This document shows positions 25,689 through 32,380 of a stretch of 33,393 bases of DNA, in pieces; position 1 is the stretch's first letter; every line of letters starts with the position of its first letter. The notes beneath the pieces are model-generated. The model was given only the letters and a program-made list of their open reading frames with translations, made no database searches and had not been told where the DNA came from. This DNA is from a virus. The stretch is taken from the IMG/VR virus record IMGVR_UViG_3300032296_002177, positions 1 through 33,393 of that record. The stretch is one strand, 5' to 3'. A program made the position numbers and the translations under genes.

Positions 25689-26039
25689 ATGGCAAATCCA
25701 AACGGACGCAAAGGCGCACTCTTCGAAACAGATGTAATGAGATGGCTGCGTTCCGTTGGCGCGATCGCTGAGCGATTGACCAAAGCCGGCAGCAAAGACG
25801 AAGGCGACGTCGTCGCGATCGTTGCAGGCAAGACATACATTCTGGAATTGAAGAACCGAAAAAACATCTCACTCCCGGCGTTCTGGGATGAAGCAACGAC
25901 AGAAGCTGCAAACTATGCAAAGGCCAGAGGACTAGAACAAACTCCTCCGGCATACGTCATAATTAAGAGACGCAACGCAGGAATTGAAAAGGCCTGGGTT
26001 GTCGAAAATCTAGAGCAGTGGGTGCAGCGCCATGATTAG
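25689..26039 (+). CDS. Holliday-junction-resolvase-like PD-(D/E)xK nuclease
   Basis: 116 residues. KGALFETDVMRWLRSVG with Glu13, GDVVAI with Asp40, and YILELKNRK with Glu53 and Lys55 form the E...D...ExK active site of small archaeal-resolvase-like or RecB-family nucleases. It would cut branched DNA arising in phage replication or packaging. A full single-domain length is preserved. It overlaps the WhiB gene by 8 bases. Confidence 0.72.
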   Translation: MANPNGRKGALFETDVMRWLRSVGAIAERLTKAGSKDEGDVVAIVAGKTYILELKNRKNISLPAFWDEATTEAANYAKARGLEQTPPAYVIIKRRNAGIEKAWVVENLEQWVQRHD

Positions 26040-26496
26040 AACGACGCAGCATCTCCCATTTGTGCAGCTCTTCGAGAGCGCCGCATGCGCCGAGATTGGC
26101 GATCCCGATTATTTCTTCCCGGAAGGGAAAGCAGAAGAGGCAGAGCGCCTCCCAAACCTTCGCAGAATCTGCGGTGGTTGTATCGAAAGAAAGGAATGCT
26201 TGGCATACGCCATCAAAGAAGAGATCCCACATGGCATCTGGGGCGGCAAGACGCCGTCCGAGAGGGGCCATGACTTGAAGCGAGATCAGAAGAAGGAGCG
26301 CCAAAAGCGCGTCGTCAAACTCCGCGATCAAGGAATCTCAACCGACGAAATCGCCAGAAAAGTAGGCATCAGGGTGACCCAGGTTTACCGGATCTTCACT
26401 GAAGCAAACAAGGCGAGAAAGCGAGAAGACCAATCAAACCAGATCAGACATACGCAGTCCGCCGATTTATCTTCATCATTGGAATCGCAACGGTGA
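26032..26496 (+). CDS. whiB: WhiB-family regulator with C-terminal helix-turn-helix
   Basis: 154 residues. The WhiB domain (about 10-82) has the four iron-sulfur cysteines Cys19, Cys47, Cys50 and Cys56 (CxxCxxxxxC) and the GIWGG turn at 68-72, then PSERGHDLKR. WhiB proteins bind the principal sigma factor and alter transcription. Beyond it, KERQKRVVKLRDQGISTDEI ... VTQVYRIF (about 87-123) looks like an added resolvase/sigma-type helix-turn-helix, making it longer than usual (80-130 residues). The family is restricted to Actinobacteria and their phages. Likely regulates phage or host transcription; overlaps the neighbours by 8 and 4 bases. Confidence 0.88.
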   Translation: MIRTTQHLPFVQLFESAACAEIGDPDYFFPEGKAEEAERLPNLRRICGGCIERKECLAYAIKEEIPHGIWGGKTPSERGHDLKRDQKKERQKRVVKLRDQGISTDEIARKVGIRVTQVYRIFTEANKARKREDQSNQIRHTQSADLSSSLESQR

Positions 26497-28851: not shown

Positions 28852-29052
28852 ATGACGGATCAAGAGAAGGCAATCAACGAAGTTCTCGAGAGCATCGAGA
28901 TAGAGATTGTAAAGATGATCAACAGAAAGCTAGTGACAGAAGCATCGGATTGCTGCTTCAGAGAACGAGAAAAGGGATTCCAGGAAGGGCTGCAATTTAG
29001 CAGAGCAAGTCTTCGCGCCCGATACATTGAAGAAGAAGCAAACGACGAATGA
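28852..29052 (+). CDS. Small helical hypothetical protein
   Basis: 66 residues; AGGGGG (28841-28846) upstream decides this start over a longer frame running through the tRNA-like region. Mostly helical and charged (QEKAINEVLESIEIEIVKMI, then EREKGFQEGLQFSRASLRAR), with a Cys-Cys pair. Overlaps the primase-helicase gene by 4 bases. No family recognised. Confidence 0.62.
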   Translation: MTDQEKAINEVLESIEIEIVKMINRKLVTEASDCCFREREKGFQEGLQFSRASLRARYIEEEANDE

Positions 29053-31115
29053 GCAATGAAATTCTGACCACAGCTCTGCGCTTTGCAGCAGCAGGCATCT
29101 GCGCCGTTCCAGTTGCAGCAGACGGATCCAAACGCCCCGGATTGCCAGCATGGACGGCCTACCAGAAGAAGCGACCCACGCCTGAAGAATTAATGGGCTG
29201 GTTCGGAAAGAAGCAAGACGGCGTCGGCATCATTTGCGGATCCGTAAGCGGCGGCCTTGAAATGTTGGAACTTGAAGGCAGAGCAGTCGCAAAGAAACTT
29301 CACATCGAGCTCAGGCAGATATTCGAGAGCAGCGAGCATGGCCACCTTTGGACGAAGCTCGTCAACGGATACATGGAGACGACGCCATCGGGCGGCATTC
29401 ATTGGCTCTACCGGATCGCAGACGCCAAAGTGCCAGGCAATACGAAGATCGCACAGGCAGCAGGCGAAGATGGCGGATGCTTGGCCGAAACACGCGGCGA
29501 AGGCGGCTTCGTGATCACAGCGCCATCCGGCGGCAAGTGCCACCCTTCAGGCAACGCCTGGCAGATCAGCGCAGGATCCATTGAAACCATTCCAACCTTT
29601 ACGATCGCAGAGCGCGAGATTATTCACCAGTACTTCGCCCTTTACGACGAAGTACCGAAGGCCGAATGGATCGAAGAAGAGACAAAGCCACGCCAGGACG
29701 GAATCCAAACACCAGGCGATGCCTACAACGACACCGTCACCTGGGAAAGCATTCTGGAGCCACTCGGATGGACGAAGGTTTACAGCAAGGGCGAAGCGAC
29801 CGCATGGCGACGTCCAGGCAAGTCCGAAGGCATATCGGCGACGACAAACTTCAACGGCAACGGCAAACTCTTCGTTTTCAGTACATCAACCATCTTCGAT
29901 GCGCAGAGCAGTTATTCGAAGTTTGCCGCCTACACCCAGATAGAACATAAGGGCGACTTCAAATCAGCAGCTTCACATTTACGATCGCAGGGCTTCGGAG
30001 CAAAGACAGAGCTGCGCACCGATTGGCAGCAGATCGAAGCCCACAATCCCAGCCATGTGCAGCTACACGATGAGAACGAAGAGATCGCGACCAGCTCGTG
30101 GATCCCACAGGACATCACCGACATGCAGCTCGAAGATGAACCAGGGCCATCCATTCTCAAGCGAGAAGACGGCCATCATATTCTTTATGCAAACAAGATA
30201 AACGCCATCTTCGGTGAGAGCGAAAGCGGCAAGACTTGGATCGCAATCGAAGCGGTACGCCAGGAATTAGCCAAAGGCCACTGCGTCTTTTATATGGACT
30301 TCGAAGACAGCGCTCGCGGCATCAGAGGACGCCTCAAGACGATGGGAGTGGCAACTACAGGGTTGCGCCACTTCAGATACGCAAACCCGGACGAAGGGCT
30401 TACCAGGGGCATCGTGGAAGTCATTCAAAGCGAGATCCAGATCCATAAACCATCCCTGATCGTGATCGACGGCGTCAACGCAGCGATGAACCTTCTCGGC
30501 CTCGACTTGGAGAAGAACAAAGACGCCACGACGTTCTCGCAGCTCATCCTTCGCCCACTCCGAATGGAGAACGCGGCCATCTTGACCATTGATCACGTCA
30601 CGAAGAGCAAGGACACCCGGGGCAACTACGCCATCGGAGCACAGGCAAAGCGAGCCGATATCGACGGCGTCGCGATCGCAGTCGACGTGGCGATGCCATT
30701 CGGCCGGGGCTTGGACGGCTGCCTGAATCTGAAAGTAACCAAAGACCGGCCAGGATTTGTCCGCGCCATCTGCCAGGACGCTAAAGACCTCGGCGTCGCC
30801 AATTTGAAGAGCAACAAGGACGGAACCATCACAGTCACGATTAGCGGCGGCACAATTCAAGTGACGACGAAGGAGCAGAAGCTTCAGGAAGTATCGGCCT
30901 TCTTCAAACGCATGGGCAACGAGATGGGCCAGAACGACATCCGCAAAGGACTGCGTCAAGAAGGAATCGAGATCGGAAACCAGGAATTAGGGCAGGCATT
31001 GGAGCAGCTCATCTCCGGCGGCTTCATCGAATTTAGGAAGCAAGGGCAGAAGTACCTCTACAAATTCAAGAATCAATTCATGATCGGTGACGTCAACGCA
31101 TGGGAAGCGGAGTAA
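29049..31115 (+). CDS. Primase-polymerase / RepA-type helicase fusion
   Basis: 688 residues. Residues 1 to ~195 are a bifunctional primase-polymerase-like domain (LRFAAAGICAVPVAADGSKR, GVGIICGSVSGGLEMLELEG, TPSGGIHWLYR, GEGGFVITAPSG). The usual Asp pair of this site appears as Glu-x-Glu at 74-76. Residues ~370-600 are a RecA-type hexameric helicase: Walker A GESESGKT (389-396), Walker B LIVIDG (470-475), and TIDHVTKS ... GNYAIGAQAKRAD. The C-terminus looks like a winged helix (DIRKGLRQEGIEIGNQELGQ). It is the core replication enzyme, followed directly by the repeat region. Confidence 0.85.
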   Translation: MSNEILTTALRFAAAGICAVPVAADGSKRPGLPAWTAYQKKRPTPEELMGWFGKKQDGVGIICGSVSGGLEMLELEGRAVAKKLHIELRQIFESSEHGHLWTKLVNGYMETTPSGGIHWLYRIADAKVPGNTKIAQAAGEDGGCLAETRGEGGFVITAPSGGKCHPSGNAWQISAGSIETIPTFTIAEREIIHQYFALYDEVPKAEWIEEETKPRQDGIQTPGDAYNDTVTWESILEPLGWTKVYSKGEATAWRRPGKSEGISATTNFNGNGKLFVFSTSTIFDAQSSYSKFAAYTQIEHKGDFKSAASHLRSQGFGAKTELRTDWQQIEAHNPSHVQLHDENEEIATSSWIPQDITDMQLEDEPGPSILKREDGHHILYANKINAIFGESESGKTWIAIEAVRQELAKGHCVFYMDFEDSARGIRGRLKTMGVATTGLRHFRYANPDEGLTRGIVEVIQSEIQIHKPSLIVIDGVNAAMNLLGLDLEKNKDATTFSQLILRPLRMENAAILTIDHVTKSKDTRGNYAIGAQAKRADIDGVAIAVDVAMPFGRGLDGCLNLKVTKDRPGFVRAICQDAKDLGVANLKSNKDGTITVTISGGTIQVTTKEQKLQEVSAFFKRMGNEMGQNDIRKGLRQEGIEIGNQELGQALEQLISGGFIEFRKQGQKYLYKFKNQFMIGDVNAWEAE

Positions 31116-31121
31116 GCAGCC

Positions 31122-31130
31122 TGTGGATAA
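31122..31130 (-). promoter_or_regulatory. DnaA box (reverse orientation)
   Basis: TGTGGATAA on the + strand is the exact complement of TTATCCACA. It sits within CAGCCTGTGGATAACT (31117-31132), which recurs with one change at 31303-31318 in the next gene (CAGCCTGTGGAAAACT). Confidence 0.55.
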
Positions 31131-31198
31131 CTCAACTGTTCCGCCGTTCCGCACCGTTCCGCACCGTTCCGCAGAACGGCAGGGCAAGAGCGACCAAA

Positions 31199-31240
31199 CT
31201 GTTCCGCTGTTCCCCCCCTATAAGGGGGAACGCGGAACAG
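31199..31240 (+). other. Long hairpin built from the GTTCC repeats
   Basis: CTGTTCCGC (31199-31207) pairs with GCGGAACAG (31232-31240), and GTTCCCCC (31209-31216) with GGGGGAAC (31224-31231), leaving one bulged T and a CCTATAA loop: 17 base pairs. It could be an origin cruciform, a replication arrest site or an mRNA structure before the next gene. No U-run follows. Confidence 0.7.
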
Positions 31241-31268
31241 TGGAACAGCAGCCAAAGGAACAGAATAA

Positions 31269-31643
31269 ATGAAAGATTCAAACTTCACTCCTTTATTTTG
31301 CACAGCCTGTGGAAAACTTATCTGGGAAGGGTTGGCCGTCGGATTTCAGATCAGACTCGACCCCGGAACTTTGACCATTCAAGAAGAGATCATCAAACGG
31401 ATCCAGGGCAGCCGAACATTTGAACTACATAGGACGGCCGTATCATTTGAAGCAGGGCTGCGATCGCTGAACGCCATCCAAAGAAGCCAGGGCAAGAAGC
31501 CACTCATTCTGGCCAGCCACAGCTGCAGCCGGAGTAAAGAGATATTCAGATTCGAAGGGCAGGAGCCAAGCGAAGATGAGATCCCGGATTATTGGAACAG
31601 CAGGAAGAAGCCACAGCTCGAAACCGAAGGGATACCGTTCTGA
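31269..31643 (+). CDS. Hypothetical protein with N-terminal CxxC
   Basis: 124 residues; GGAAC about 8 bases upstream is a modest binding site. LFCTACGKLIWEG has a CxxC (Cys11, Cys14), with further Cys in ILASHSCS; together they could bind zinc. The middle (IRLDPGTLTIQEEIIKRIQG, LHRTAVSFEAGLRSLNAIQ) looks alpha/beta. I recall similar proteins beside actinophage primases but not a function. Its end overlaps the next gene by one base (TGATG). Confidence 0.6.
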   Translation: MKDSNFTPLFCTACGKLIWEGLAVGFQIRLDPGTLTIQEEIIKRIQGSRTFELHRTAVSFEAGLRSLNAIQRSQGKKPLILASHSCSRSKEIFRFEGQEPSEDEIPDYWNSRKKPQLETEGIPF

Positions 31644-32380
31644 TGGACTGCACAATCTGCGGCAAGAAGACTGAGCGACCAGGAGCCTGCAACCGATGCG
31701 CCTCCAAAGTCCGCAACCAGATCGCAGAGCTTCCACAGCTCCACAAAGAAGCCGGACAATTTCTGCACCCATCCCGGACAGGATCAGGGGCGGCCAGCAC
31801 CGAGCGCAGCATTGGCATCAACGTCTCGGCTTTGGACTTCACGATGGCGACGGAACTTCTTCGAACCCTTCATGCCTGGGAATCCACGATCCGTTTCACC
31901 AGACAGCTCACGCCTCCTGCAATGTTGATCAAGGAAGCAAGTACAGAGGGCGAAGTCTTGGCGAGCGCAACCTTTCACCTGAGCCACCTCGATTGGTCAC
32001 TTGGACAAGAATGGGCGGCAGACTTCGCCCACGAAATCCAGATTATCCATGCCAAAGGAAGAGCAGCTGCAAAGCGCTTCTCGGAGCAGCCCCGGCGAAT
32101 CCCATGCCCGAGCGATGACTGCAAGAAGTACGTGGTCATTGACGCCGATAACTTAACAGCCGAAGTCGCCTGCTTCGGATGCAAGCAGCAATGGACGGTG
32201 CTGCGGTTGATAGCATTGGCAATGAGCAACCCGAGCAAAACCTTTTACCTCGACGTTGAAGCGATTGCAATGTGGCTAGGAATTACAGAGCGCGAAGTTT
32301 ATAGAACGATCAAGAAGAATGACATCCAGAGAAGAGGAAGTCTTTATGACATCGCAGCAATTATCCAGGCACGATCATGA
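31643..32380 (+). CDS. Zinc-ribbon and helix-turn-helix DNA-binding protein
   Basis: 245 residues from the TGATG overlap start. N-terminal zinc finger with Cys3/Cys6 and Cys16/Cys19 (DCTICGKKTERPGACNRC); a second cluster near 172-203 (IPCPSDDCKKY ... VACFGCKQQW); a C-terminal helix-turn-helix (AIAMWLGITEREVYRTIKKN, then RRGSLYDIAAI). The overall layout suggests a DNA-binding regulator or replication accessory. Just before an intergenic operator-like palindrome, so autoregulation or control of downstream genes is possible. Confidence 0.68.
   Translation: MDCTICGKKTERPGACNRCASKVRNQIAELPQLHKEAGQFLHPSRTGSGAASTERSIGINVSALDFTMATELLRTLHAWESTIRFTRQLTPPAMLIKEASTEGEVLASATFHLSHLDWSLGQEWAADFAHEIQIIHAKGRAAAKRFSEQPRRIPCPSDDCKKYVVIDADNLTAEVACFGCKQQWTVLRLIALAMSNPSKTFYLDVEAIAMWLGITEREVYRTIKKNDIQRRGSLYDIAAIIQARS

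Follow-up and report, generated by a model that had tools for sequence, protein, structure and literature searches.

The 33,393 bases analysed here (the window) make up the complete IMG/VR virus record IMGVR_UViG_3300032296_002177. Between the stop codon of its primase-helicase gene (positions 29049-31115, plus strand; 688 amino acids (aa), assigned by Pfam) and the next start codon lies an element of 153 nucleotides (nt; 31116-31268) that combines direct repeats, a DnaA box and a hairpin, and is conserved as a unit; this element is the putative replication origin considered below. Terminase, portal and head genes identify the virus as a tailed phage. An actinobacterial host is indicated by a WhiB gene (26032-26496) and by the closest isolated PrimPol relatives, which are Arthrobacter phages. 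The main genes of the record all lie on one strand. Downstream of the element, on the plus strand, are the genes for a zinc-knuckle protein (phrog_10480; 31269-31643) and for a protein with zinc and helix-turn-helix (HTH)-like DNA-binding features (phrog_1467/1568; 31643-32380).

The direct repeats are iterons of the form C[CT]GTTCCGC. Four copies begin at 31136, 31144, 31154 and 31164 on the plus strand (span 31136-31172; spacings 8, 10 and 10), and the last three of these positions mark exact tandem copies of CCGTTCCGCA at a spacing of 10. The shorter word GTTCCGC is present in five direct copies (31138, 31146, 31156, 31166 and 31201). Its core, GTTCC, occurs 10 times on both strands of the element (six direct copies, and four inverted at 31227, 31234, 31242 and 31257), whereas 153-nt windows elsewhere in the 33.4-kb record contain three copies at most. 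A partial inverted iteron, GCAGAACGGC, occupies 31171-31180 on the minus strand. Beyond it lies the hairpin (31198-31241), whose outer arms (ACTGTTCCGC and GCGGAACAGT) are themselves iteron sequence and whose inner arms (GTTCCCCC and GGGGGAAC) enclose the loop CCTATAA; two further inverted half-iterons, GGAACAG, follow at 31242-31262 (minus strand). At the other end, at 31122-31130, is an exact match to the DnaA box, TGTGGATAA, which reads TTATCCACA on the minus strand. None of 200 shuffled sequences folded as well as the element (z = -5.45). The repeats, DnaA box and hairpin are thus confirmed as real and far above chance. A sequence-only reading of this locus had described the repeats, DnaA box and hairpin, correctly in nearly every detail; the hairpin has 18 pairs with one bulged base in its left arm, and the exact 7-mer GCGGAAC is inverted once only (31232), the remaining inverted copies fitting just GGAAC(AG). 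Neither a T-run or terminator at the element nor a sigma-70-like promoter near it was found, and a terminator or promoter reading was set aside. A reading as a known RNA family was likewise rejected, as an Rfam search of the element returned no family above the gathering score, only sub-threshold matches at chance level.

The protein encoded directly upstream carries a PrimPol domain (aa 9-172; Pfam PF09250, 1.6e-11) and an AAA_25 RecA-like helicase domain (aa 378-521; PF13481, 9.5e-9). Its helicase part matched AAA_25 and RecA-like families only: the Pfam matches included no helicase domain of superfamily 3 (SF3), an AAA_25 RecA-like domain stands in place of any MCM/D5-like helicase homology, and no RepA_N match was found. 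In Pfam, the C-terminal stretch gave weak winged-helix matches only. For aa ~605-680, AlphaFold2 (AF2) predicted a three-helix winged helix (pLDDT 79; secondary structure H-H-H-E-E), and Foldseek with this model returned DNA-binding winged helices (Zur, Fur, PadR and BlaI; best E 4.9e-4). The codons of the predicted domain, delimited by the AF2 model, Foldseek and the covariation reported below, span 30861-31088 on the plus strand, with those of the predicted recognition helix, IGNQELGQALEQL, at 30972-31010. The full-length AF2 model (pLDDT 70, pTM 0.38) is too weak for claims on domain arrangement.

We searched IMG/VR with this and related primases and obtained more than 100 distinct relatives, a lower bound given that more matched than were listed; removal of duplicates and of contigs ending too early left 112 loci among the relatives listed. 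The element was found 3′ of the primase gene in 112 of 112 relatives having enough sequence. To avoid circularity, we also scanned the whole collection independently of any protein with two DNA patterns, the hairpin apex and the DnaA box plus first iteron. Of the 61 loci that these scans yielded, 55 immediately follow a gene for this primase, 5 follow it at a distance of one inserted gene, and 1 is cut by a contig end. Where a gene has been inserted between primase and element (L011, L014, L039 and L064) the element is whole; the inserted genes, named from their translations alone, are methyltransferase-like or PAPS-reductase-like. Despite the insert, the DnaA box stays with the repeats rather than with the primase (L011, L014, L039 and L270). 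Because element and box remain intact across insertions, the element is a unit. Similar repeats were not found in the two intergenic gaps checked in the isolated Arthrobacter phages closest by PrimPol (Peas); in Peas-type phages the PrimPol is merely 41% alike, and the following gene begins without a gap.

The inserted foreign genes fall exactly between the primase stop codon and the element, and do so repeatedly (L011, L014, L039, L064, L128, L261 and L270). In L039 a CCTGTGGATAAC box flanks the insert on each side, a hint that the box is a target of site-specific insertion or of duplication. Separately, L071, L120, L122, L132, L141 and L172 carry an extra block of the same word, in both orientations, in the first ~130 nt after the primase stop codon and preceding the element. 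In several of these loci the block is flanked by sequences like TTTACGCTC and GAGCGTAAA; it is perhaps a second binding array or a larger hairpin.

The repeat word itself differs among clades. Besides CYGTTCCGC in the clade of the window, we found CCGCGCCGA, CTGTTTCCC, CCGAACCT, CCGATCCGC, CCGATAC and ATTGACCC, plus a mixed GTTCC[CT] form. Within one element, the direct copies, the outer arms of the hairpin and the inverted copies behind it share one word, and therefore change together. Direct-repeat spacings across the word classes are 8, 10 and 11, that is, about helical, as in iteron-type theta origins. Pairing of the hairpin was kept in all 43 distinct sequences folded, although outside the C-run almost every pair has changed letters; because the MAFFT alignment misplaced the right arm, we took the pairs from each fold separately. 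Compensated pairs also occur outside the word: L025 and L028 have CGCGCC/GGCGCG versus CACGCC/GGCGTG, and further cases are L049 and L064 (GTG/CAC), L093 (CCTTCC/GGAAGG) and L097 (CGATAC/GTATCG). The apex of the hairpin differs in L128 (TGCCTATAAGGCA). The symmetry of the arms may have been kept for pairing or for a protein complex that is itself symmetric; the data fit both.

Using 60 representative loci, we compared similarity of the word with windowed identity of the primase, corrected for overall identity across aa 1-560. The three windows within aa 601-688 gave partial correlations of 0.47, 0.64 and 0.46; in the rest of the primase the values ranged from -0.17 to 0.20. A partial Mantel test on the last ~85 residues gave 0.656, a value reached by none of 2000 permutations. 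For the downstream proteins, the partial correlation with the word was 0.14 (zinc) and 0.04 (zinc/HTH). When words were placed on trees, the minimum number of changes was 15 for the catalytic part, 13 for the zinc protein and 9 for the last 85 residues, the possible minimum being 7.

Natural exchanges of the word follow the same domain. Between L070 and L062, identity is 99% over aa 1-580 of the primase, 100% for the zinc protein and 99% for the protein after it, but only 39% over the last 85 residues of the primase; their words are CCGAACCT and CTGTTCCGC, respectively. The pairs L118/L122 and L175/L138 show the same swap pattern with other words. In the three swap pairs, flanking DNA is mostly 93-100% identical; across the final ~290 nt of the primase gene and ~140 nt of the element, identity falls to ~50-75%. 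The exchanged block thus runs from ~290 nt before the stop codon to ~140 nt after it, ~430 base pairs (bp) comprising winged helix and element. Across word swaps, the catalytic part (aa 1-580) is 97-99% identical, which disfavours the PrimPol domain as reader. The zinc-knuckle protein is 94-100% and the zinc/HTH protein 95-99% identical while the word switches; both were rejected as readers on this ground and on their low partial correlations, and we regard them as neighbours of the element. These results indicate that winged helix and element together make up one contiguous specificity cassette that can be swapped; the cassette and its reader domain are what this analysis adds. The sequence-only reading had named two possible binders of the repeats, the adjacent fused enzyme and the zinc/HTH protein encoded downstream. 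Covariation with the word strongly supports the enzyme as the binder and singles out its C-terminal winged helix; for the downstream protein, binding finds no support.

Within the winged helix, the plainest differences between word classes sit at the N-terminus of the recognition helix. Its third position is N for all words ending in CCG, and S or G for CCGAACCT (words ending in CCT); a KD pair accompanies CTGTTTCCC (TTTCCC). This residue-word correspondence is a pattern in the sequences, not an established code.

Taken together, these data suggest that the element is very probably the replication origin of the phage and is read by the C-terminal winged helix of the primase-helicase encoded directly upstream. 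The earlier proposal of a phage origin at this site, for which a check of relatives had been suggested, is thus well supported, though indirectly, by the presence of the element in every relative. Sequence analysis provides the conservation, the concerted change of the word, its exclusive linkage to the winged helix, the exchange of the cassette and the kept pairing; from these we infer binding, unwinding, priming, the action of DnaA and a role as origin rather than operator. In the mechanism that we propose, the winged helix would bind the iterons in duplex DNA, and iteron binding would load several subunits and hence the AAA_25 ring helicase. The hairpin, which is GC-rich and has the word in its arms as well, would be extruded, or exposed as single strands when the DNA melts, and would fix the site of loading or priming; the PrimPol domain would then lay the first primer. 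In the clade of the window, the DnaA box next to the first iteron may let host DnaA help to open or load the origin, and other clades would manage without it. Winged helix and element would evolve in concert and pass between phages by recombination.

We found similar arrangements in plasmids and isolated phages. In the 7.9-kb Streptomyces plasmid p-XQ-29-C (L219), CCTGCCC repeats directly follow an AAA_25 gene, together with a hairpin whose apex is formed by a C-run and a G-run. Its neighbouring genes, when tested, showed no further Pfam replication domain; the plasmid is otherwise annotated with an FtsK-type protein, a DUF2637 protein and hypothetical proteins. The Kineococcus plasmid pKRAD02 (L220) and the phages MinS1, Dagobah and P8625 (annotated as a Microcystis, a Streptomyces and a Verrucomicrobia phage, respectively) each have a distinct, strongly repeated word that lies in the 3′ end of the AAA gene or immediately behind it. 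As two of the positive cases are plasmids, a role in replication is favoured over a regulatory role specific to phages. In Dagobah (L222; 3440-3766), AACCGGT iterons lie in the last codons of the AAA gene, where they encode the repetitive peptide EPVGEPVADLLEPVGEPVADLHEPV, and a hairpin with the apex CGGTCTCTTTAGAGACCG follows. In MinS1 (L221), an Lsr2 gene stands beside the gene for a DnaB-N/AAA_25/winged-helix protein. Lsr2 is typical of actinobacteria and their phages, and the annotated cyanobacterial host may deserve a check.

Several observations weigh against an origin at this site. Dulem virus 38, Rasputia and Zuko, which have a related AAA domain, showed no significant repeat word at the corresponding place. 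The element is GC-rich (54-66% over most of its length), and the sole AT-rich stretch (30% GC, 31250-31299) falls within the start of the next gene. The GC skew of the genome shows no clear switch; the GC/AT skew plot proposed in the sequence-only reading was made, but with a cumulative GC minimum at 28.6 kb, the main genes on one strand and a third-codon skew lacking a switch it proved uninformative. Finally, the covariation would be the same if this winged helix read the element as an autoregulatory operator.

Such an operator is the main rival: the winged helix would bind the repeats to control transcription of the downstream zinc, HTH and nuclease genes, with no role in the start of replication. 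Iterons often act as operators too, the element lies between two co-directional genes in an operon-like block, and the linkage of word and winged helix fits an operator and an origin equally. However, the element stands 3′ rather than 5′ of the gene for its reader and has no sigma-70-like promoter nearby, and insertion of a gene between primase and element has been tolerated repeatedly. The same element is present in p-XQ-29-C, in which no replication gene other than the AAA_25 gene can be recognised, and a paired GC-rich hairpin would be unnecessary for an operator. We therefore consider a purely regulatory role unlikely.

Alternatively, host DnaA could be the main opener of a replication origin at 31116-31268, and the downstream zinc/HTH proteins could read its repeats. 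The box is perfect and appears to be under selection as DNA: in 36 loci the primase reading frame runs through it (ending LPVDN), and the P, V, D and N codons are the same in 36 of 36, whereas neighbouring codons vary. It is also phased, lying 5 bp from the first iteron in 21 loci and 14-15 bp in 37, a difference of about one helical turn. Yet TGTGGATAA adjoins the element in 58 of the 112 loci, all belonging to three clades (that of the window, the CCGCGCC clade and the CCGATCC/CCGATAC clade), and is missing from the other 54, so that DnaA is no general requirement. The box alone is not unique, as two more exact copies of TTATCCACA occur elsewhere in the genome (22810 and 25069). With the zinc and HTH proteins nearly constant at word switches, an origin of this kind is very improbable. 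Of the earlier suggestion that host DnaA opens the origin, selection on the box and its phasing stand in three clades, but not a general role; we regard host DnaA as a clade-specific helper, plausible for this phage and outside the core mechanism. A second DnaA-like site at 31308 (TGTGGAAAA) was rejected, being simply codons of the zinc knuckle C-G-K-L. The surrounding DnaA-like sequence at 31303-31324, TGTGGAAAACTT, is kept in many relatives as the codon run of this CGKL knuckle and could mislead origin-finding programs.

Two further explanations retain very little probability. De novo priming by NrS-1 polymerase depends on an 8-nt template recognition sequence (PMC7102993), and the word could by analogy be a single-stranded recognition sequence for the PrimPol domain instead of a duplex site for the winged helix; but aa 1-580, PrimPol included, stay 97-99% identical while the word changes entirely, and their identity does not track it. 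An RNA-level role, in which the hairpin would act in the transcript (processing, translation control or attenuation) and not as DNA, would suit a stable stem of kept pairing between two genes of one probable transcript, but is hardly tenable given that terminator and Rfam signals are missing and that direct repeats outside the hairpin change with the arms and with a winged helix of DNA-binding type, neither of which RNA pairing needs.

Elsewhere in the record, at its left end (126-1451), a ParB-like N-terminus is fused to a DNA methyltransferase.

To our knowledge, the origins of metagenomic phages are almost never known. Natural swaps of the kind described here point to both the putative origin and its reader from sequence alone, and supply cognate and non-cognate pairs. 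A recognition code for origin specificity could be learned from the set of words, at least seven, and the winged helices that match them, and orthogonal origin/initiator pairs are of potential use in actinobacteria. The swaps also raise the question of what drives turnover of the word: phage competition, satellites, or origin-directed nucleases as in ICP1/PLE. As a tentative generalization, which we hold to be possible but somewhat less than probable, phage and plasmid replicons with AAA_25-type (RepA/DnaB-like) helicases may carry the 3′ end of the helicase gene and the sequence after it as a transferable lock-and-key cassette of winged helix and iteron hairpin, whose word would diversify under selection by origin-targeting nucleases, satellites or competing phages and may be predictable from a few residues of the recognition helix.

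The arrangement resembles several known replicons in part. In pRN1 of Sulfolobus, one protein (ORF904) likewise unites PrimPol, helicase and C-terminal winged helix, and replication requires a stem-loop origin of ~100 nt that immediately follows the gene on its 3′ side; this stem-loop is the least conserved sequence between well-kept flanks, with the fold retained (PMC4234260). The phage shares the PrimPol domain, a predicted C-terminal winged helix and a stem-loop directly 3′ with its fold kept. Unlike pRN1, which has an SF3 helicase, it has an AAA_25 (RecA/RepA-like) domain; and whereas the pRN1 paper reports no iteron structure (PMC4234260), here arms and flank consist of iterons of one concertedly changing word, with an optional DnaA box. 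RSF1010 also combines iterons, ssi hairpins, a RecA-like ring helicase and a primase (as described in PMC4234260), but distributes them over three separate proteins, RepA, RepB' and RepC, in contrast to the one fused protein and the iteron-built hairpin arms found here.

In SaPI Rep and SCCmec Cch2, the C-terminus of the helicase reads iterons just downstream of the helicase gene (PMC7581432), as position and covariation suggest for the phage protein. Those initiators are self-loading and MCM/D5-like, with a separate primase, and a hairpin built of iterons that covaries with the DNA-binding domain is not among the features described in the portion of the source consulted (PMC7581432). Phage NrS-1 likewise encodes a PrimPol-helicase fusion with sequence-specific initiation, but its priming needs an 8-nt template sequence present in two genome copies (PMC7102993), whereas no such tie between PrimPol domain and word is seen here.

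In the PLE of Vibrio cholerae, the DNA-binding domain of the initiator RepA covaries and is exchanged with the ori, and cognate pairing has been shown experimentally (PMC8263062); the counterparts here are the three natural swaps and the partial Mantel value of 0.656. PLE differs in its RepA_N initiator, its semi-palindromic iterons of ~30 bp and a noncoding origin apart from repA, and it has only two module types (PMC8263062), compared with at least seven words and a contiguous cassette here. The helicase or initiator family differs each time, and as tested the phage system appears to belong to none of pRN1, SaPI/Cch2 or PLE by descent. By analogy, its anatomy is closest to pRN1, its putative mode of iteron reading to SaPI Rep and Cch2, and its exchange of modules to PLE.
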